64,000 nucleotides of DNA, from NCBI GenBank assembly GCA_031285845.1, contig JAITVK010000002.1:62001-126000 (forward strand), given 5' to 3'. The translations under genes and the position numbers were made by a program. A model generated the notes under the pieces. The model searched no databases, had not been told where the DNA came from, and saw only the letters and a list, made by a program, of their open reading frames with translations. Positions 2,683 to 58,940 of this stretch are shown here, one piece after another. Position 1 is the stretch's first letter; every line of letters starts with the position of its first letter. Source of the DNA: Propionibacteriaceae bacterium (GTDB lineage Bacteria > Actinomycetota > Actinomycetes > Propionibacteriales > Propionibacteriaceae).

Positions 2683-2792
2683 ACGCACAAGTGGGCTTAT
2701 TGCATCTATCAGTATAACTTATTCCGAGAATGATGATAACATGGCGGGTAGATCCACGGGTGGGTCGAAGTGTCAACGGGTCAGGAGCAGCG

Positions 2793-4091
2793 ATGATGGG
2801 TACGACAGCCGACATTCGCCGGGATAATTCATTGTCAATTGTACGATATATTTCCGCTGTGGGGACTGCCAGCCGACGGGAATTAGCTGAGGCCACTGGC
2901 CTCAGCTTCGCGACAGTCGCTGCGATCAGCGCGGACCTTCTCACCAGCGGTGTGCTGACCGCTTCGGCGCCAGAGCGCAACGCAGTCGGCCGTCCGACGG
3001 CTCGCCTGCAGCTCAACGGCGAGCGGGGCGTCTTCTTGGCGCTCGACATCGTCGAAGACCACCTGGAGATCGCCACCTATGACAGCGGGTTGCGCGGTCT
3101 GTCCCGCAGTCGGGTCCAGTTCGAACGTCAGTTCGTCGCGCCAGATGAGTTGCTCAGTGTCGTACGGGCTGCCATTCGGTCCCAGGCCGAAGTGAACGCG
3201 CCGCGAACCGTGATCGGAATCGGGGTGTCGGCCCCCGGAGTGGTGGATCCGGTGACGGCGACGTGGATGCTCGCGCCGCCGTGGCAATGGCGTCAGGTCA
3301 CATTGGCCGATCTGGCCGACGATGTCGTCGATCACGCCGACTCCGACGGCGCTGGCCGTGGCGGCGTCGGTCGCTATGACGCCACTGCTCGCCATGTCGC
3401 GCTCGACAATCCGCAGCGAATGTTGGCGACCGCGGAACTGTGGTCCAACCCAGTCCGAGCCGATCAGACCTTCGTCGTTCTCAGCCTCGGCGCTCACGTG
3501 ACCTCGGGCATCGCCATCAACGGGCGACTCCTGCGCGGAAGAACCAACACCGCCGGGCAGTGGGGGCATTCGGTCTTAGTCGCGGGCGGACGTCCCTGTC
3601 ATTGCGGGTCGTACGGCTGTGTGGAGACCTACCTCGGGGCCGAGGGCATCCTTCGTACCCTGCGGGACATCGACTCCGACTCCCCGCTGTTGAACAACGG
3701 GGACACGACCACGGCTATCGAAGAGCTGGCGCGGGCCGTGGTGACTGGGGACCCGGTCGCGAACAAGACTGTGGATCGGACCGGCCATTACCTGGGAGCC
3801 GCGATCGCCTCCATGGTCAACCTGTTGAACCCTGACGCGGTCGTCCTGACCGGCTGGATCGGAGAACTGCTGGGCGCCTACCTGCTGGGCCGCGCCCGGA
3901 CTCAGATCGAGACTTGCGCGCTAGACGTTCCGCTGAGGGCGACCATGATCGAGTTGGGTCGACCGTCGACTGACCAGGTCTGTCTCGGCGCGGCCGCAGA
4001 AGCATTGGAGCGATCACTGATCGAGCTGAGTCGCGAGCGAATCGCCTCAGCGGGCTCAGCCGAAGTCTCGAACCAATTGGCCGAGGTTTGA
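2793..4091 (+). CDS. ROK-family transcriptional regulator
   Basis: 432 residues. The N-terminal winged helix-turn-helix (about residues 10-60) contains SRRELAEATGLSFATVAAIS. The rest is a ROK sugar-kinase-like domain with GIGVSAPGVV and the signature LRGRTNTAGQWGH followed by the zinc-binding CHCGSYGCVETYLG at about residue 268. The AGGAG at 2783-2787 sits 5 bases before ATG 2793, with a second ATG directly after it; a longer in-frame start at 2730 has no such site. ROK repressors usually respond to a sugar or sugar phosphate. The gene precedes the GH112 phosphorylase on the same strand, which makes that enzyme a candidate target. The ligand is not evident. Confidence 0.9.
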   Translation: MMGTTADIRRDNSLSIVRYISAVGTASRRELAEATGLSFATVAAISADLLTSGVLTASAPERNAVGRPTARLQLNGERGVFLALDIVEDHLEIATYDSGLRGLSRSRVQFERQFVAPDELLSVVRAAIRSQAEVNAPRTVIGIGVSAPGVVDPVTATWMLAPPWQWRQVTLADLADDVVDHADSDGAGRGGVGRYDATARHVALDNPQRMLATAELWSNPVRADQTFVVLSLGAHVTSGIAINGRLLRGRTNTAGQWGHSVLVAGGRPCHCGSYGCVETYLGAEGILRTLRDIDSDSPLLNNGDTTTAIEELARAVVTGDPVANKTVDRTGHYLGAAIASMVNLLNPDAVVLTGWIGELLGAYLLGRARTQIETCALDVPLRATMIELGRPSTDQVCLGAAAEALERSLIELSRERIASAGSAEVSNQLAEV

Positions 4092-50558: not shown

Positions 50559-50814
50559 TCGTTCGCGTACGCGGCCTCACGCTGGAGATGGACTCAGTTT
50601 TCCCGCTCTATCCCGCACCCCGCCAAGCGCACCAACCAAGATCGGCGAAGATTCCGTACGCATTTCTGTGTGATGACGAAAAGACATCCGGCAACTCATG
50701 ATCAGGCATGTTCTGAGGCGTACCGACCTGCTAACATCGGACCGGCATGGACTGGTTCAGGCGAGCGAACGCCGCCGGAATCCACCAGCGATGGAAGGCC
50801 TACAAGGGAGCACG
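50559..50814. other. Upstream region of the PFOR gene
   Basis: No gene. A TAACAT (50732-50737) could be a -10 element, without a convincing -35. AAGGGAG (50803-50809) is the PFOR ribosome binding site. Confidence 0.35.
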
Positions 50815-53800
50815 ATGAAGAAGTCAATTGCCTACCCCGGAACCCCGGATGTCATCAATGGAAATGGCGCCGTGGCTTATGTGATGAAGCAGGTCTGCGG
50901 TGGTGTCATTGGGTATCCGATCACGCCGTCGACGGAGGTGTCGGAGATCTTCGAAGCCGGACGGGCCGAAGGCCAACTCAACGTCTGGGGAAAACATCCG
51001 TTCTTCGTCGAAGCTGAAGGTGAGCATTCCGCGCAGTCGGGCGCATTGGGCGCTGCGATGGCCGGTGGCAATTTCATCTCCAACGCCAGTTCAGCCCAGG
51101 GCATCCTCTACGGCTTGGAGTCGCATTACGCGACGGCGGGCAAGAAGATCGGCGGTTTCGTCCTCCAGGTGGCCGCTCGTGTCGTCACACGCCACTCGCT
51201 GAACGTCATGGCTGGTCACGACGACATCTACTCGCTGTTGCCCGCCGGATACACCGTCCTGTTCGGATCCAATCCGCAAGAAGCCGCCGACTTGGCGGCG
51301 ATCGCCTATCGGACGAGCTCGTTGTCGCTGATCCCGGTGGCCAACGCCTTCGACGGCTTCGCCACCAGCCATGTCATGAGCGAAGTCATGCTGCCTGAGC
51401 CAGAGCTGCTCAAGGCCTATCTCGGCGACCCGGCCGGACGAATCCCCTGCCCGACTGTCGCCCAAGAGATTCTCTTCGGAGCCAAAGGCCGCGTCGCCTA
51501 TCTGACCGGTTGGCTTGCCGCCCATGCCGACACGATTCCCGGTGAAGATCGTCGCCTGATCGCCGAGCACCTGGCCGACCATGCCGATCAGATCGAAGCT
51601 GATGACGCCGCTGCCTTGGCCGACTCGGTGGCCGACCATCTCCCGGCCGCGCTGCGAGGCGCATGGCGGCGGGCTTGGAAAGGCGCTTGGTCCAAAGGCA
51701 CCCGCCAGTTGGTTCCCGCGATCGTCGATCCCCACAATCCGGGCCTGTCCGGTGGGGTGCAGAACCAACCCGATTTTCAGGCTGGCTCGGCCGATCACCG
51801 GACCCACTTCGCCGCCGCCGTTCCCGGTCTGATCCGTCAGGCGATGCGTGAATACGCCGAGCTGACCGGGCGTGAGTACGCTCCGGTGCAGCGTTATGGC
51901 GTCAAAGACGCCGACCTGGTGGTGGTCGGGCTCGGCTCGATCACCGATGACGTACGCGCGCTGTTGCCGTACTTCGCCAGTCAAGGCCTCAAAGTGGCGG
52001 TCGTGTCGGTCAAACTGATGCAACCGTTCCCGGATGAGGAATTGGTCGAGGCGCTGAAAGGCGCCAAACGGGTCACAGTGTTGGAGCGTTCTGAAGACAC
52101 CGCGCTGGCCCGTGGCGTCAAGCAGGCGCTGTTCGAGGCTGGCCTCAGCGCGGCCGATGTGACACTGACGACGGCGATCTTCGGACTGGGATCTCATGAT
52201 GTTCAGCCGCGCGACCTGATCGCGGTGGTGAAAAACATGGCCGATGGCGGAGCAGCTCCGCTCGTCTACGTTGGTTCCCAGTTCTTCGTCAAGAACCCGG
52301 TCGGCGCCAACCTGATCGACATTCAAGACCGGATGCGTCAGGCGTACCCCGAAACTGTCGACATGGCTTTGCCGGTCGGGGCCAACCCGCCGGGATTGTT
52401 GCCCAGCGACGCGCTGCGGATTCGCTTCCATTCGGTCGGTGGCTATGGCACAGTCGCGACCGGCAAGCTGCTGACCGACATGCTCAGTTCGATGCTGTCG
52501 CTGCATTCCAAGTCGGCCCCGAAGTACGGTTCGGAGAAGTCGGGCGCGGCGACGAATTTCTACATCACGTTGTCGCCGGAGCCTGTCCTGTTCACCAACG
52601 CGACCCTGGAAGACGTCGAAGTGGTCGTGTCGCCCGACCACAAAGTTTTCGACCATGACCGTCCACTGCGCGGTTTAGTCGAAGGCGGGACTTTCGTCCT
52701 CCAATCCGACAAGACCGCGGTCGACACCTGGCAGGCGCTGCCCGCCTACGCTCGGCAAGAGATTCGCGACAAGAAGATTCGCTTCCTCGTGATCGACGCT
52801 TTCGCCGTCGCGAAGAAGCACGCTCCCACGCCCAACTTGGAGACCCGGATGATGGGCATCGCGTTCATCGGCGCGATCATCGCCCATGTCGACCGGATCG
52901 CGCGCGGCGCGGATCAGGCGAAGGTTCACGAGCTGGTTCGTCACGAGATCACCAAAAAGTTCGGTTCCAAAGGAACGGCGGTGGTGGACGCCAACATGGC
53001 GGTCATCGCCGACGGGATCGCCGCCACGGCGGTCGTCGACTACACCCAGCCCGAATTCGGTGACACCCCGGCGCTGGCGACGACGCAGGCCAGCCCGGCG
53101 CTGACCACCAGGCTCGTTCCGCGCGCCGACTCCGCCCCGGCCGGTCTGTTCGATCAGACCTACTTCGACGACATCCTGGGTCGGTCGTTCCGGGAAGGCT
53201 GGGTCGATTCCGCTCCGGTCCTGCCGGGCACGGGCGCTTTCATTCCCGTCGGAACTGGCGCGGGCAAGAACAAGGGTATTTTCCGGCTCCAGGTCCCGGT
53301 GTTCGATGTCACCAAGTGCACCGCCTGCCTCGAATGCGCCATCGCCTGTCCTGATTCGGCCATTCCGAACCAGGCGCATGAGATTTCCGACCTGATCGGG
53401 TTGGCGATTCGTACGTCCTCGTTGGCCCCCGCCGCCCAGACCTACGTGACCGGGTTCATCGACGCCTGGTCTGACAAGGTACGATCCACGCTGCTCGACG
53501 ACACGAAGGCGAAAGACTTCGCCGGCGCCGTACGCACTGCCAGCGTGGTGGTGCCCGACCTCGCCCCAGGTCATCTGGAGGCGATCATCGCCCAACTGGG
53601 TCAGTTCCCGGTGTCACGGATCCGTCCGATCTTCGACCAGATGGAGAAGGCCAACCCCGGATCGGGCGCGATGTATTCGGTCGTGGTGGATCCGTGGAAG
53701 TGCACCGGCTGTCTGGAATGCGTCAGCGTGTGCGGACCGAAGGCGCTGAGTTCGGCCACACAGACCGACGATCTTCGTCAGTCGATGGAGGCGACCTACG

Positions 53801-55821
53801 AGCGCCTGACCGAACTGCCGAACACTCCGACTCGGTTCACGAAGGGCGCGGCCCATCCGGGTGGAGACACCAAGCGGATCCTGATGGATCATGACAACTA
53901 CTACGCTCTGGCTGGCGGGCATGGCGCCTGCAAGGGCTGTGGCGAAGTCACGACGACCCACCTGGTCACTGCTCTGACCCATCAAATGGGCGAAGAGCGT
54001 CGCCAGCAGCGCATCGGCGAGTTGGAATCCCTGATCTACCAACTGACGACCAAAGCGGCCACGGCCCCTGCGGCGTCGGCCGAGCGGATGCGAGCCACGA
54101 TCGACCAGTTGGAGTCGGCTCTGTGGTTGTACGAATCCGGTCCGACCGGCCAAGGCCCTGCCGGTTCGGTGATCGTCAATTCGACCGGCTGCTCCTCGGT
54201 CTATGCGTCGACCTTCCCGGCCAACCCGTTCACCCAGCCGTGGTTCAACTCGCTGTTCCAAGACGCGCAAGCCAGCGCGGTCGGTGTGTTCGAAGGCGTG
54301 GTGTCGCATTACCTCGACGAAGTCAAAGCCTGTCGGATGGCTCGACTCGAGCTGGACGACACTTATGATCCGGCGGTCGACGACAAAGCCCTGGCCACCT
54401 TGTCGTGGCGTCACTTCACCGCTGAGGAACTGGCTGGGTTGCCGCTGGTCATGACCATTTCTGGTGATGGCGCGGCCTACGACATCGGCTTCGGCGCGAT
54501 CTCGCGGGTGTTGACCAGTCAGACCCCGGTCAAGATGCTCGTTTTGGACACTGGCGGGTATTCGAACACCGGTGGACAAGCCTCGATGGCGTCGTTCACC
54601 GGGCAGAACGCCGATCTGGCCCGTTATGGCAAAGCCCATCACGGCAAAGCGGAGCGGCGCAAAGAGTTGGGTCTGTTGGCCTTCCTCCATCCGGAGGTGT
54701 TCGTCGCCTCGGTCTCGACCGCGCTGCATTCTCACTTCTTGGCTACCACGATGTCGCTGATGTCCTACAACCACGGATCCTCGGTTTTGGTCAGCTACAC
54801 CCCGTGTGGTTTCGAGCAGGGCTTCGCCGATGATCAGTCGAACACGCGGGCGCAGTTGGCCGTACGCGCGCGCATGGCGCCGCTGTTCGTTCATGACCCC
54901 CGCGCCGGATCCACGGTGTCGCAGCGGTTGTCGCTGGACGGCAACCCCGAGATCGATCAGCCGTGGGCCACGCTGAACATGAAGTACGTCGATGAGACTG
55001 GCGCCACCAAGATCATGACCATGCCATACACCCCGGCGGAGTTCGCCTACGGTGAGGTGCGTTTCGCCAAGCACTTCCGACGGTTGGCCGCCGACGCCGC
55101 TCAACCGACCCCGATCGCGGAGTTCGTCGAGTTGACCCCTGAGGCGCGCGTCGGACGCACCCCCTACATCGTCACCACCACGGGGGCGGGCAAGCTGGCG
55201 AAGATCGCGGTGTCGGCTCACATCGTCGACTTGGTCGAGGATCGTCAAGCCAACTGGCAGTTGTTGCGCTTCCTGGCTGGGCGCGACGCCCAGTTGAGCG
55301 CGCGTGAAGCCGCCGCGGCGCTCAAAGCTCTGCAGGAGCAACTGGACGAGGCTCAAACGGAGCGCGAACAAGGCATCGACGAGATCGCTCACGCTTTGGC
55401 TGAACTGGCCACCTCGGGCAATTCAGCCTCAGTCGCCCTGCCCAGCTTCGGAGCTGGGGCCGGTGGAACTGTTCCGACCAGTACGGCTGCCGCATCGGTC
55501 GGCGCGGCTGCCAGTGCGGCGGCTGACGCCGCGGCTCCGGCCTCATCCGGCGCGGTGAGCTCCGCGACGGGTCTGGGGTCGAAACCAGCTGGCGCGCCGA
55601 TCTGGTTGGCCACTCAGGATGAGCCGAAGTGCACCGACTGCGCCACCTGCTATCAGGAGTTGCCCGCCATTTTCGAGTCGACGACGATCGTGGTCGACGG
55701 CGAAGCCAAGAACGTCTCCCGGATGAAGCCAGGGGCGCTCGACGGCTTGGAGGTGACGCCCGAACTTCAGGCAGTGATGGATCGAGTCAAGGGCACGTGC
55801 GATGCGGAGATCATCCAATGA
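50815..55821 (+). CDS. Pyruvate:ferredoxin (flavodoxin) oxidoreductase with extra C-terminal ferredoxin
   Basis: 1668 residues, far longer than the usual ~1170. It oxidises pyruvate with CoA to acetyl-CoA and CO2. Order: PYR/TPP domain I (MKKSIAYPGTPDVINGNGAV; GYPITPSTEVSEI; AEGEHSAQSGALGAAMAGGN), domain II (VVVGLGSITDDVR), gamma domain (IRFHSVGGYGTVATGKLL, ~535), two 4Fe-4S motifs CTACLECAIACP (~834) and CTGCLECVSVCGPK (~962), proximal-cluster CKGCGE (~1036) and TPP-binding GDGAAYDIGFGAISRVL (~1217). Extra parts: a helical insertion at ~235-300, a long gap between the two Fer4 motifs, and a C-terminal Ala/Ser linker plus CTDCATCYQELPAIF ferredoxin-like unit (~1605). The start follows AAGGGAG. 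The stop overlaps the Nfn-like gene (ATGA), so the two are co-translated. Confidence 0.93.
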   Translation: MKKSIAYPGTPDVINGNGAVAYVMKQVCGGVIGYPITPSTEVSEIFEAGRAEGQLNVWGKHPFFVEAEGEHSAQSGALGAAMAGGNFISNASSAQGILYGLESHYATAGKKIGGFVLQVAARVVTRHSLNVMAGHDDIYSLLPAGYTVLFGSNPQEAADLAAIAYRTSSLSLIPVANAFDGFATSHVMSEVMLPEPELLKAYLGDPAGRIPCPTVAQEILFGAKGRVAYLTGWLAAHADTIPGEDRRLIAEHLADHADQIEADDAAALADSVADHLPAALRGAWRRAWKGAWSKGTRQLVPAIVDPHNPGLSGGVQNQPDFQAGSADHRTHFAAAVPGLIRQAMREYAELTGREYAPVQRYGVKDADLVVVGLGSITDDVRALLPYFASQGLKVAVVSVKLMQPFPDEELVEALKGAKRVTVLERSEDTALARGVKQALFEAGLSAADVTLTTAIFGLGSHDVQPRDLIAVVKNMADGGAAPLVYVGSQFFVKNPVGANLIDIQDRMRQAYPETVDMALPVGANPPGLLPSDALRIRFHSVGGYGTVATGKLLTDMLSSMLSLHSKSAPKYGSEKSGAATNFYITLSPEPVLFTNATLEDVEVVVSPDHKVFDHDRPLRGLVEGGTFVLQSDKTAVDTWQALPAYARQEIRDKKIRFLVIDAFAVAKKHAPTPNLETRMMGIAFIGAIIAHVDRIARGADQAKVHELVRHEITKKFGSKGTAVVDANMAVIADGIAATAVVDYTQPEFGDTPALATTQASPALTTRLVPRADSAPAGLFDQTYFDDILGRSFREGWVDSAPVLPGTGAFIPVGTGAGKNKGIFRLQVPVFDVTKCTACLECAIACPDSAIPNQAHEISDLIGLAIRTSSLAPAAQTYVTGFIDAWSDKVRSTLLDDTKAKDFAGAVRTASVVVPDLAPGHLEAIIAQLGQFPVSRIRPIFDQMEKANPGSGAMYSVVVDPWKCTGCLECVSVCGPKALSSATQTDDLRQSMEATYERLTELPNTPTRFTKGAAHPGGDTKRILMDHDNYYALAGGHGACKGCGEVTTTHLVTALTHQMGEERRQQRIGELESLIYQLTTKAATAPAASAERMRATIDQLESALWLYESGPTGQGPAGSVIVNSTGCSSVYASTFPANPFTQPWFNSLFQDAQASAVGVFEGVVSHYLDEVKACRMARLELDDTYDPAVDDKALATLSWRHFTAEELAGLPLVMTISGDGAAYDIGFGAISRVLTSQTPVKMLVLDTGGYSNTGGQASMASFTGQNADLARYGKAHHGKAERRKELGLLAFLHPEVFVASVSTALHSHFLATTMSLMSYNHGSSVLVSYTPCGFEQGFADDQSNTRAQLAVRARMAPLFVHDPRAGSTVSQRLSLDGNPEIDQPWATLNMKYVDETGATKIMTMPYTPAEFAYGEVRFAKHFRRLAADAAQPTPIAEFVELTPEARVGRTPYIVTTTGAGKLAKIAVSAHIVDLVEDRQANWQLLRFLAGRDAQLSAREAAAALKALQEQLDEAQTEREQGIDEIAHALAELATSGNSASVALPSFGAGAGGTVPTSTAAASVGAAASAAADAAAPASSGAVSSATGLGSKPAGAPIWLATQDEPKCTDCATCYQELPAIFESTTIVVDGEAKNVSRMKPGALDGLEVTPELQAVMDRVKGTCDAEIIQ

Positions 55822-58800
55822 CAGCGACAGTGAATGAGACGAGCGTCGGCGTACGCGGCGTCGACGAGGTGGAAACCTTCGGAGCGGCGCGGGCCTGCCT
55901 CGGCGAGACTTCCCCATCTGTCCTCGGATCGCCCGGGTCGGGCGATTCTGTGGAGATGGGGACCCCCCCACCGGGCGCGGCTGCGGGGGTCGGGCCGTGG
56001 ACCAATGCCTCTCATCTTCAGTCCCGTTCCGATGAGCATGGTGGCGGGGCTGCGACAGGCGTACGTTCGGCTGAGTTGGCGCTGCTGGCCCAACATTTGG
56101 CGGCTGACCCCGGGGCGTTTCGTGACCTGCTCATTCGCGACGGATTGGCCGCCGTGGCGGCTGAATTCGCCCAAGGTGGTTCGCTCGGCGCCGAGTTCAC
56201 TGAGCGCTTGTGGGGCGTGCTGTTGGCTGGCGGTGACGCCGCGACCGCGTTGATGCGATTCCTGTGGCAGTTGCCGGTCGGTCGTCAGCGCATCTTCCTG
56301 CGCGCAGTCGACGAGCATCTGTCGGGGCGATACCCGATGTTCGCGGGCCTGTCCGCGTCATGGCCGGCCCAAGCGGGCATGGGACCGTACATCCGTCGAC
56401 CTGAGGAACGCAGCGCCGACTTCGACCTGGTCAACAAGGGTTATCTCGGTTACATGGATCAGGGGTACTCGCTGCGCGAAGTCGAGTTGTTCGTCTGGTT
56501 GGAAGCGCTGCGCGACAAGCAGTGCTCAGAGAAGCCTTGCGAACTCGGCAAACTCTTGCAGAGCAAAGACGGCAAAGATGAGCGTGTCGGCGGCTGCCCA
56601 GTGCAGATCCACATTCCGACCATGTTCAAGCTGATCGGCGAAGGCAAATTCGATCAGGCGTTGGAGATGCTCGAAGACTGCAATCCGCTGCCCGACGTCA
56701 CCGGACGTGTCTGCCCGCAAGAGTTGCAATGCCAAGGCGTCTGCATTCACAAACATCCGATGTCGATCGGGCAGGTTGAATGGTTTCTGCCGCAATGGGA
56801 CAAACTGGCTCATCCCGGTCGAGCGTTGGCGAGGCTGCAGGGCCGGGCCGATCCGTGGGTTGTGGCCGACAAACCAGCCGTCGCGATCGTCGGTTCAGGG
56901 CCATCGGGCCTGATCAACGCGTACTTGTTGGCGCGTGCCGGCTACCCGGTGACGGTGTTCGAGGCTTTTCATGAACTGGGTGGGGTGTTGCGCTTCGGCA
57001 TTCCCGAATTCCGGTTGCCGAACAGTCTGATCGATGACGTGGTTGAGAAGATCCGCGCGCTCGGTGGACGGTTCGTCACCAATTTCGTCGTCGGCAAGAC
57101 TGCCACGTTGCAGGAATTGCGCGATCGCGGGTTCGCTCACATCTTCGTCGGCTCAGGCGCGGGATTGCCGCAGTTCCTGAACGTTCCAGGTGAAGAGCTG
57201 CTCAACGTCATGAGCGCCAACGAATTCCTGACACGCGTCAACTTGATGCACGGCAACCTTCCCGGCTATGAGACGCCATTGCCCGACGTCGCGGGCAAGA
57301 CGGTGTTGATCATCGGTGGCGGCAACACTGCGATGGACGCCGCTCGTACGGCCCGTCGGCTCGGTGGTGACGTCACCATCGTCTACCGGCGCACCCAATC
57401 TGAGATGCCTGCTCGTGTCGAAGAATTGGAACATGCGTTGGAGGAGGGCATCCACTTGATGCCGCTGCGGTCACCGGTCGAATTCGTCGGCGGGGAGCGC
57501 AACTTCGTAGCCTCGGCTGTTCTCGACGTGATGGAGCTCGGCGAGCCGGACGCCTCCGGGCGTCGTCGCCCCAACCCCACCGGGCGTACGGAGACGGTGG
57601 CCGCGGATCTGGTCATCATGGCTTTGGGCAACACCGCCAACCCGATCATTCGTGACTCCGAACCGCGTTTGGAGGTGTCGCGTCGTGGCACCATCGTGTT
57701 GCGCGACGGAACCCAAGAGACCTCGTTGGACGGGATCTACACTGGCGGCGACGCCGCCCGTGGCGGCTCGACTGCGATTCGAGCAGCCGGTGACGGCCAG
57801 GCGGCCGCCCGTCAGATCATGGCCGATTCTGGAGTTGGGCGTACGGATGGTGGCGACGGGGCTGACGCCTCTAAAGCGACGCGGGCCTGCCTCGGCGGGT
57901 CCTCCCCATCCGTCCTCGGATCGCCCGGGTCGGGCGATCCTGTGGGGATGGGTGTCCCCCCCGCCGGGCGCGGCGACGTGGCTGATGCTTCAGCGCCTGA
58001 GCCGGTCGCCCATCAGGTGGCGCGGGCATTGGCGTTCACTGAGGAGGCTCAGACCGCGCCAGTGATCGTGGGTCGTCGCGATTTGAGCGTCGGGATCGTC
58101 GAGTTCGTCGTACGAGCTCCTGTGATTGCGGCGTCGGCGCGAGCCGGACAGTTCGTCCGGGTGGATCCGCGGGCGAAAGGCGAGTTGGTTCCCCTGACGC
58201 TGGCCGACTGGGACGCCGAGCGTGGGACGATCACGTTGGTCGTCCAGGCGATGGGGTCGACCTCGATCGAGATCAACACGATGCAGGTCGGAGATCGGTT
58301 CGCTGGGATTGCCGGTCCGCTGGGACGTCCGTCGAATGTCGTTCCGATCGACGCTGGGCAGCGGGTCGTCTTCACCGCCGGTGGGCTCGGCCTGCCGCCG
58401 GTGTACCCGATCATGCGTGAGCATCTGTCCATCGGCAACCACGTGACGCTGATCGCTGGTTTCCGTCGCGAAGACCTGATGTTTTGGACGGGCGAGGATG
58501 ACTATGTCGGCCAGATCAAAGCGCAGTACGGCGACCTGCTCGACATCGTCTACACCACCGACGACGGTAGCTTCGGCATCAAAGGTTTCGTCACCGCGCC
58601 GCTGAAAGACATGCTCGACGCCAACGCGCCCATCGCCAAAGTTGTCACGATCGGTCCGCCGATGATGATGCGCGGGGTGTCGGATCTGACCAAGGGGTAC
58701 GAGGTCGAGACTGAGGCCAGCCTCAACTCGATCATGGTCGACGCCACGGGCATGTGCGGCGCCTGCATGGTCCCGTACATCGAAGACGGCAAGATGATTC

Positions 58801-58940
58801 GCAAACACGCCTGTATCGACGGCCCCGAGCTGGATTCGCATCACATCGATTGGGACAAGTACCTGCCCAGATTCGGCCTGTTCAAGAAGCAAGAAGCCGC
58901 GGTGATGGGCGAGAAAGGGTACGTCGTGCCGCGAGGGTAG
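55818..58940 (+). CDS. NfnAB-like fused reductase (GltD-type + ferredoxin-NADP reductase)
   Basis: 1040 residues in one chain. An Ala-rich N-terminus (1-190) contains the first palindromic insert. Then a GltD/NfnB module: Fe-S domain CSEKPCELGK, GGCPVQIHIP, CNPLPDVTGRVCPQELQC, first nucleotide site VAIVGSGPSGLINAYLLARA, second site IIGGGNTAMDAARTARRLGG, and DGIYTGGDAARGGSTAI. After a linker holding the second palindromic insert comes an NfnA/PyrK-like FNR module: AGQFVRVDPRAKGE, TAGGLGLPPVYPI, and the 2Fe-2S motif GMCGACMVPY with a later HACIDGPE. Fused NfnB-NfnA order. Presumed to exchange electrons between reduced ferredoxin, NADH and NADPH; bifurcation is not provable here. Overlap with PFOR suggests direct electron transfer. 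Confidence 0.88.
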   Translation: MTATVNETSVGVRGVDEVETFGAARACLGETSPSVLGSPGSGDSVEMGTPPPGAAAGVGPWTNASHLQSRSDEHGGGAATGVRSAELALLAQHLAADPGAFRDLLIRDGLAAVAAEFAQGGSLGAEFTERLWGVLLAGGDAATALMRFLWQLPVGRQRIFLRAVDEHLSGRYPMFAGLSASWPAQAGMGPYIRRPEERSADFDLVNKGYLGYMDQGYSLREVELFVWLEALRDKQCSEKPCELGKLLQSKDGKDERVGGCPVQIHIPTMFKLIGEGKFDQALEMLEDCNPLPDVTGRVCPQELQCQGVCIHKHPMSIGQVEWFLPQWDKLAHPGRALARLQGRADPWVVADKPAVAIVGSGPSGLINAYLLARAGYPVTVFEAFHELGGVLRFGIPEFRLPNSLIDDVVEKIRALGGRFVTNFVVGKTATLQELRDRGFAHIFVGSGAGLPQFLNVPGEELLNVMSANEFLTRVNLMHGNLPGYETPLPDVAGKTVLIIGGGNTAMDAARTARRLGGDVTIVYRRTQSEMPARVEELEHALEEGIHLMPLRSPVEFVGGERNFVASAVLDVMELGEPDASGRRRPNPTGRTETVAADLVIMALGNTANPIIRDSEPRLEVSRRGTIVLRDGTQETSLDGIYTGGDAARGGSTAIRAAGDGQAAARQIMADSGVGRTDGGDGADASKATRACLGGSSPSVLGSPGSGDPVGMGVPPAGRGDVADASAPEPVAHQVARALAFTEEAQTAPVIVGRRDLSVGIVEFVVRAPVIAASARAGQFVRVDPRAKGELVPLTLADWDAERGTITLVVQAMGSTSIEINTMQVGDRFAGIAGPLGRPSNVVPIDAGQRVVFTAGGLGLPPVYPIMREHLSIGNHVTLIAGFRREDLMFWTGEDDYVGQIKAQYGDLLDIVYTTDDGSFGIKGFVTAPLKDMLDANAPIAKVVTIGPPMMMRGVSDLTKGYEVETEASLNSIMVDATGMCGACMVPYIEDGKMIRKHACIDGPELDSHHIDWDKYLPRFGLFKKQEAAVMGEKGYVVPRG
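55883..55981. repeat. Palindromic element copy 1, inserted in frame in the Nfn-like gene
   Basis: 99 bp with about 90% identity to 57875-57974. Its core GGATCGCCCG (55926-55935), loop GGT, CGGGCGATTC (55939-55948) forms a hairpin. It encodes ARACLGETSPSVLGSPGSGD in the reading frame, within the non-conserved N-terminal part. Confidence 0.85.
57875..57974. repeat. Palindromic element copy 2, inserted in frame in the Nfn-like gene
   Basis: Three nested inverted repeats: CGGCGGG/CCCGCCG (57893-57899, 57960-57966), CCCATCC/GGATGGG (57905-57911, 57946-57952) and GGATCGCCCG/CGGGCGATCC (57918-57927, 57931-57940). It encodes TRACLGGSSPSVLGSPGSGD in the linker between the GltD-like and FNR-like modules, the same frame as copy 1. 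Confidence 0.88.

Follow-up and report, generated by a model that had tools for sequence, protein, structure and literature searches.

A dispersed family of nested palindromic elements in one Propionibacteriaceae genus, with two in-frame copies in an Nfn-like fusion gene

Two copies of one element in an electron-transfer locus

The window, a 64,000-nucleotide stretch of a Propionibacteriaceae bacterium genome (contig JAITVK010000002.1, positions 62,001 to 126,000), contains a noteworthy electron-transfer gene pair at 50698–58940. The upstream gene (50698–55821, + strand; start uncertain) is pyruvate:ferredoxin oxidoreductase (PFOR)-like by its Pfam and NCBIfam matches and could encode a single chain of up to 1707 residues. 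Its stop codon overlaps, in an ATGA arrangement, the start of a gene for a fused NfnL–NfnS-like oxidoreductase of 1040 residues (55818–58940, + strand; start inferred), assigned from Pfam, NCBIfam and PDB relatives. Residues 257–667 of the fusion resemble the solved NfnI alpha and residues 752–1026 NfnI beta.

Two copies of a palindromic element are found inside the fusion gene, both on the + strand. Copy 1 (55883–55981; model core 55891–55981) lies in the N-terminal tail, at residues ~22–55, and the best NCBIfam match of the protein begins after it, at residue 72. Copy 2 (57875–57974; model core 57883–57974) covers residues ~686–719 and, since the solved NfnI relatives end before it and resume after it, sits in the linker that joins the two enzyme modules. 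The copies belong to a direct repeat (55857–55969 and 57849–57961) with a spacing of 1992 nt and 81% identity over 113 nt; across the 100-nt element itself the identity is 90%, and the cores agree at 83 of 92 positions. Both are read in the same phase of the frame. An earlier note made from the sequence had described precisely this arrangement, two ~100-bp copies in a common frame in the tail and the linker, and in these respects it was confirmed.

Translation of the N-terminal copy calls for some caution, as it could begin further in, and the codon-usage gene caller set the gene start behind copy 1. It likewise left the N-terminal copy of a related species, G015, outside its gene. In most of the Nfn orthologues examined, the upstream frame closes with a conserved CGDHP-like sequence and an ATG follows at once, the same disposition as in the window. 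The position of the start in the orthologues thus favours translation through the N-terminal copy, and on this basis both N-terminal copies were counted as coding.

Fold and anatomy of the element

The element forms a family of nested palindromes present as dispersed copies. The nested inverted repeats that the earlier note had seen in copy 2 correspond to a 14-bp outer stem and a 21-bp inner stack. The outer stem is bulged and is built of a left arm at 57885–57899, which carries the nearly invariant block CCTGCCTCGG, and a right arm at 57960–57974 with the conserved block CGGGCGCGG. The inner stack comprises the middle and apical stems, with a left arm at 57907–57927 and a right arm at 57931–57954 (all arms + strand), placed by the fold and by pair counts; across the family its sequence is variable and shows compensatory changes. 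The same anatomy is found family-wide: a bulged outer stem with both blocks, an inner stem, an unpaired spacer and an apical stem that differs widely in sequence and length, the apex ranging from a few to more than 80 nt. The core measures 83–150 nt and is longer where nested inserts are present.

Evidence for the three nested stems comes from compensatory change. Among 50 distinct copies, standard pairs occupy 94.1% of the stem cells, compared with 80.1% in shuffled alignments and 41–49% when slid; double changes occur at 17 of the 30 pairs (shuffled mean 12.1) and in 202 cells, against 50 in the shuffles. This alignment was fitted to a covariance model and leans toward structure; the sequence-based alignment, A1, taken alone already has double changes at 9 of the 30 pairs. 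By itself, the folding energy of a copy does not settle the matter in such GC-rich DNA (z of −2.40 on the + strand and −3.34 on the − strand for copy 2, of −0.37 and −1.93 for copy 1); the case is carried by the compensatory changes.

Wobble pairs were examined as a possible strand marker and discarded as such: G–U and A–C cells are about equally frequent (28 and 26, one constant U–G pair excluded), a result without preference that does not divide RNA from DNA. The pairing therefore bears no visible stamp of one particular RNA strand, and since it is on the minus strand that the window copies surpass their shuffled versions more clearly in folding, the fold gives no support to a role as sense RNA.

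Distribution, placement and host genes

The earlier note had pointed to the rest of the source genome, and to its relatives, as places where further copies might be found. The source genome (G000) did not provide them: a search of the 2.68-Mb assembly with copy 2 returned copy 1 at 90%, followed by a match of only 36 nt (E=0.01), so that the element is represented there by two copies, both in the Nfn fusion gene. The relatives did. A first DNA search gave matches in 5 of 57 related genomes, the source genome counted, all of them of the window's genus. A covariance model built from the 21 copies of A1 (R1; E≤0.01) found 60 matches in 5 of the 19 genus genomes, namely 2 in G000, 8 in G001, 20 in G013, 23 in G003 and 7 in G015, and a broader model built from 51 copies (R2) found 65 in the same five. 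At the family level R1 (E≤1e-4) matched 5 of 198 genomes and 1 of 29 genera, and in a sample of the order R2 matched 5 of 391 genomes and 1 of 40 genera; with neither model was there a match outside the genus in these two sets, which were searched with stricter filters that lose some weak matches. What the note had named as evidence against an inserted element, a peptide shared at both sites by orthologues of distant genera, was accordingly not seen.

An exact pattern run over 84,980 species recovered 21 stretches, all in three metagenome-assembled genomes (MAGs) of Propionibacteriaceae bacterium (Emb289P4bin58, TD116_bin13 and Ehx436_bin24); such a pattern misses diverged copies, and the source genome may be absent from that collection. 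In a study of 589 termite-gut MAGs, Emb289 designates the termite Embiratermes neotenicus (PMC7024585), and at least one carrier bacterium comes from a termite gut. Phage and plasmid collections contained no match to the element, nor did viral contigs searched with the exact pattern, and Rfam at gathering thresholds, applied to seven sources including the window, returned one tRNA and no other known RNA family. The carriers are drafts of 92–99% completeness. Several copies of G013 are close to contig ends (C63, C147, C267, C268 and C308), and drafts may undercount the family.

In total 70 copies were located, 51 as model matches (one truncated) and 19 by reading fetched loci. The idea that the element colonises protein genes applies to 15 of them, the two Nfn N-terminal copies taken as coding; the majority (55) are intergenic, often behind genes. 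Among the intergenic copies, 29 are in sense within 150 nt behind a stop codon, whereas random placement in the same intergenic space gave a mean of 9.6 and a maximum of 18 in 500 runs. Near gene 3′ ends the ratio of sense to antisense copies is 29:8 (p=7.5e-4), and near gene starts 6 and 2 intergenic copies are found; these classes overlap, so that one copy may count twice, and some copies have common flanks and are not all independent. The bias weakens when the 150-nt limit is lifted, with the upstream gene in the same direction in 35 cases and in the opposite one in 21 (the two Nfn N-terminal copies included). The gene positions come from a simple codon-usage caller, in which single calls may err. 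The sense excess behind genes suggests an effect on transcript ends, or a tolerance there, and offers a direct hypothesis for the ordinary role of the element.

The 15 coding copies use both strands and several phases, 10 being in sense (5 in each of two phases) and 5 in antisense (2 and 3). Their hosts are the Nfn fusion (two copies each in G000 and G015); in G015 also the PFOR-like gene, where a third element occupies a C-terminal linker, a GH38 alpha-mannosidase and its neighbour (both antisense) and a radical SAM protein; a two-module ABC protein resembling CydDC (antisense in G001, once in sense and once in antisense in G003); an EIIA/HPr/PEP-utiliser fusion that is DhaM–PtsI-like (G001 and G013); and, in G013, a sulfatase-domain protein (antisense) and methionine synthase (MetH). 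A sixteenth coding copy, in a citrate-lyase-ligase-like gene of G013, has further sequence nested inside it. In the scanned hosts the insert is outside the Pfam stretch wherever such a stretch was displayed; the second stretches of the ABC proteins were not displayed, one glycosidase-like host had no family, and the Nfn and PFOR hosts of G015 and the EIIA/HPr host of G013 were left unscanned. Coding copies have on average 1.07 of their six frames closed, compared with 1.67 in 36 other copies.

Comparison with orthologues covers the hosts of the 15 coding copies except the radical SAM and sulfatase proteins. As the earlier note had supposed for the Nfn-like protein, the inserts are absent from related genes: besides G015, the genus offers 14 Nfn orthologues, none with a model match at either site (one of them breaks off at a contig end past the linker). 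Insert-free orthologues were likewise found for the PFOR-like gene and for GH38 and its neighbour in the source genome, for methionine synthase in three aligned genomes and for the EIIA/HPr fusion in seven; for the ABC pair, the strong divergence of the G000 and G016 linkers precludes a clean comparison. In a GH94 gene of G015 there is a stub, RPPAGRG, that looks like the decayed scar of an element. Separately, the element-holding linkers of three hosts (L129, L130 and L136) also contain in-frame tandem repeats, such as SSGDFGQGP and DSSCPRDG, so that more than one route may lengthen linkers in these genomes. Such well-known enzymes as Nfn, PFOR, methionine synthase and the CydDC-like ABC pair provide filled, empty and decaying sites, on which the movement and the tolerance of palindromes become testable.

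Both Nfn sites are also occupied in G015. At the linker the flanks align, and deletions of 1 nt ahead of the element and of 2 nt within its apex cancel each other, so that the left part of the element is read in different frames in the two species; one ancestral insertion would be the simplest reading of this site. At the N-terminal site the flanks align poorly, and common descent is less certain there than at the linker. Identity between the two species is 80/92 at the DNA level and 18/34 aligned residues at the linker, and 78/92 and 12/34, respectively, at the N-terminus. The peptide is thus kept less well than the DNA, the reverse of the pattern that the earlier note had considered indicative of an ancient domain repeat; with the DNA better conserved and the frame swapped at the linker, it is the palindrome that is kept and not the peptide.

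Copies resemble each other most within genomes. The nearest neighbour of 46 of 50 copies, one truncated copy having been dropped, is in its own genome (shuffled mean 16, maximum 30 of 2000), and the N-terminal Nfn copy of G015 is identical at 90 of 90 positions to a copy that lies antisense in a glycosidase-like gene of a different contig, which indicates that the family has spread, or has been homogenised, largely within genomes. Copy 2 of the window is one of the four exceptions, with practically equal similarities of 0.915 to a G015 copy and 0.914 to copy 1; its identity with copy 1 need not, therefore, mean recent spread. The earlier note had taken the near-identity of the window copies as a sign of recent spread or gene conversion. 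Homogenisation is possible, but these two insertions are probably not recent, both sites being filled in G015, and a constraint common to the copies, or homogenisation, could explain the 90% identity no less well than recent spread.

Relation to known repeats and probable origin

In-frame palindromes in protein genes are best known in Rickettsia, with fewer cases elsewhere: miniature inverted-repeat elements (MITEs) of the ERIC type in enterobacteria and, in several species, intragenic REPs (PMC2229807, PMC10969869, PMC3733652). The Rickettsia palindromic elements (RPEs) are hairpin repeats of ~100–150 nt that occupy intergenic DNA as well as, in frame, conserved protein genes (PMC2229807, PMC10969869). 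The likeness to them drawn by the earlier note holds: the present element is a dispersed hairpin repeat of similar size (83–150 nt among the 51 listed matches, one of them truncated) with three covarying stems, and its in-frame copies, 15 of 70, have open frames, lie in conserved genes and are absent from the orthologues compared. By their description RPEs are nonetheless set apart. Their conserved peptide has no counterpart here, where two frames per strand are used and 12–18 of 34 residues are kept against 78–80 of 92 nt; the present element has three nested stems and sits in another phylum. The RPE of R. conorii carries a terminal CGTC tag (PMC3733652), whereas CGTC is internal here in part of the copies and is conserved at neither end, which also distinguishes the element from CGTC REPs.

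REPs of the GTAG and CGTC types, mainly downstream of coding regions and in several species also inside genes (PMC3733652), share with the element the downstream preference, and the CGTC type shares with it the lack of a known dedicated transposase. REP units, however, measure 20–40 bp, with a GTAG tag at one end in the GTAG type, whereas the element is longer and nested and its consensus has no conserved GTAG; nor was the Y1 transposase of RAYT–REP systems found in the carriers. Bacterial MITEs with reading frames (ERIC/RU-1, Correia/NEMIS) are hairpins of ~100–200 bp, mostly intergenic and sometimes fused in frame to genes (PMC2229807), and are thus similar in size, fold, intergenic majority and occasional in-frame fusion. 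They differ in that the present element has a conserved bulged outer stem; neither a target-site duplication nor a parent insertion sequence was found for it, in draft genomes and with empty sites too diverged. No description of such an element in Actinomycetota was found in the open-licence literature searched, and the word Actinobacteria is absent from the available text of one REP source (PMC3733652). In G013 many copies (L135, L137, L138, L140, L143, L146 and others) are part of longer units with common right flanks and fall into two subfamilies, an organisation reminiscent of mosaic BIMEs.

An enzyme that could mobilise the element was sought in the carriers. Y1 transposases act on the folded strand in the case of REPs and of IS200/IS605. 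The Y1 (HUH) transposase family PF01797 is present in 2 of the 19 genus genomes, both non-carriers, and none of the five carriers, drafts at the completeness given above, yielded a transposase of the RAYT/IS200 type; a mobiliser of this type was therefore rejected for the present-day carriers. Neither an autonomous copy nor a parent element was recovered from the five drafts with left-end and right-end patterns, the former not fitted to the G003 type. Isolated ends, when fetched and scanned, proved to be truncated copies, nested inserts or chance matches, and the open reading frames around five such loci (L149, L178, L180, L199 and L200), inspected by eye, include none that is transposase-like; the hosts at L180 and L200 were also scanned with Pfam. 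No target-site duplication was readable.

We consider it probable, at about 80%, that the copies represent a family of non-autonomous mobile palindromic elements, known from one Propionibacteriaceae genus. The conserved bulged outer stem, combined with an apex free to vary, suggests that a folded strand is recognised by an enzyme acting in trans, which would move the copies probably as single-stranded DNA. Movement may also be due to a different enzyme that has meanwhile been lost or has escaped recognition, or to template switches at hairpin structures. Transcripts that run past the end of a gene would carry the element as a strong hairpin, tolerated there or even useful in 3′-end protection or termination; inside genes, a mostly stop-free copy in a flexible linker would act as a neutral spacer and survive, later decaying to a scar. 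A bolder version, which we hold to be unlikely, dispenses with HUH enzymes altogether: the palindrome would move perhaps by hairpin-primed template switching in replication, serving both as a portable 3′-end module and as a generator of in-frame linkers in which compensated indels swap the frame and keep the hairpin. If this were true, new inter-domain linkers in enzymes of Actinomycetota would arise from the element.

Selection rather than selfish spread could instead set the placement and the fold, the element being a functional structured module of transcript 3′ ends (a terminator, an RNase barrier or a sponge) and its coding copies by-products of recombination. The excess of sense copies behind stop codons (29 of 55, against 9.6 in the null) and the conservation of the stems through compensatory changes agree with such a module, but 14 of the 19 genus genomes have no match and so do not need it, copies are more alike within than between genomes, antisense copies occur inside genes and the wobble pairs show no strand preference; taken together, these observations make it distinctly improbable. 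The constant bulged outer stem, the unpaired spacer and the apex of a few to more than 80 nt recall the attC sites of integrons, or the sites of another site-specific recombinase, but the copies are dispersed and mostly single, cassette arrays are lacking, and the conserved blocks and the consensus do not contain the core motifs of attC, so that we give this reading very little credence. That the repeat is an ancient duplication within the Nfn-like protein, or one of its linker domains, would account for both source-genome copies lying in one gene and one frame, but is scarcely credible and was rejected, as the same element is elsewhere intergenic, antisense or in other frames, is missing from the 14 genus orthologues and is kept better as DNA than as peptide.

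A mobile palindrome remains the preferred reading, and two aspects of it are new here: the Actinomycetota as a host group, and the plain conservation of a DNA structure and not of a peptide, apparent from the use of four frames on both strands and from the compensated swap of frame at the linker.

Some copies are themselves modified by other sequences or by loss. In G003, the apex of six copies (L194, L202, L204, L205, L206 and L207) is enlarged by a repeated hairpin sequence of ~80 nt or more, in one of them twice, and these are nested elements. One copy in G013 (L179, at 2713 in contig C355), a weak match of model R2, is shorter than 40 nt and consists of the outer stem alone, the inner palindrome being absent. 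Finally, a minus-strand copy of G003 (L203, contig C28:47500–53000, at ~2749–3015 of that locus) is split by a sequence of ~160 nt that begins with GGGAA, ends with TTCCC and has TA on both sides, which looks like a TA-targeting MITE of the IS630/mariner type.
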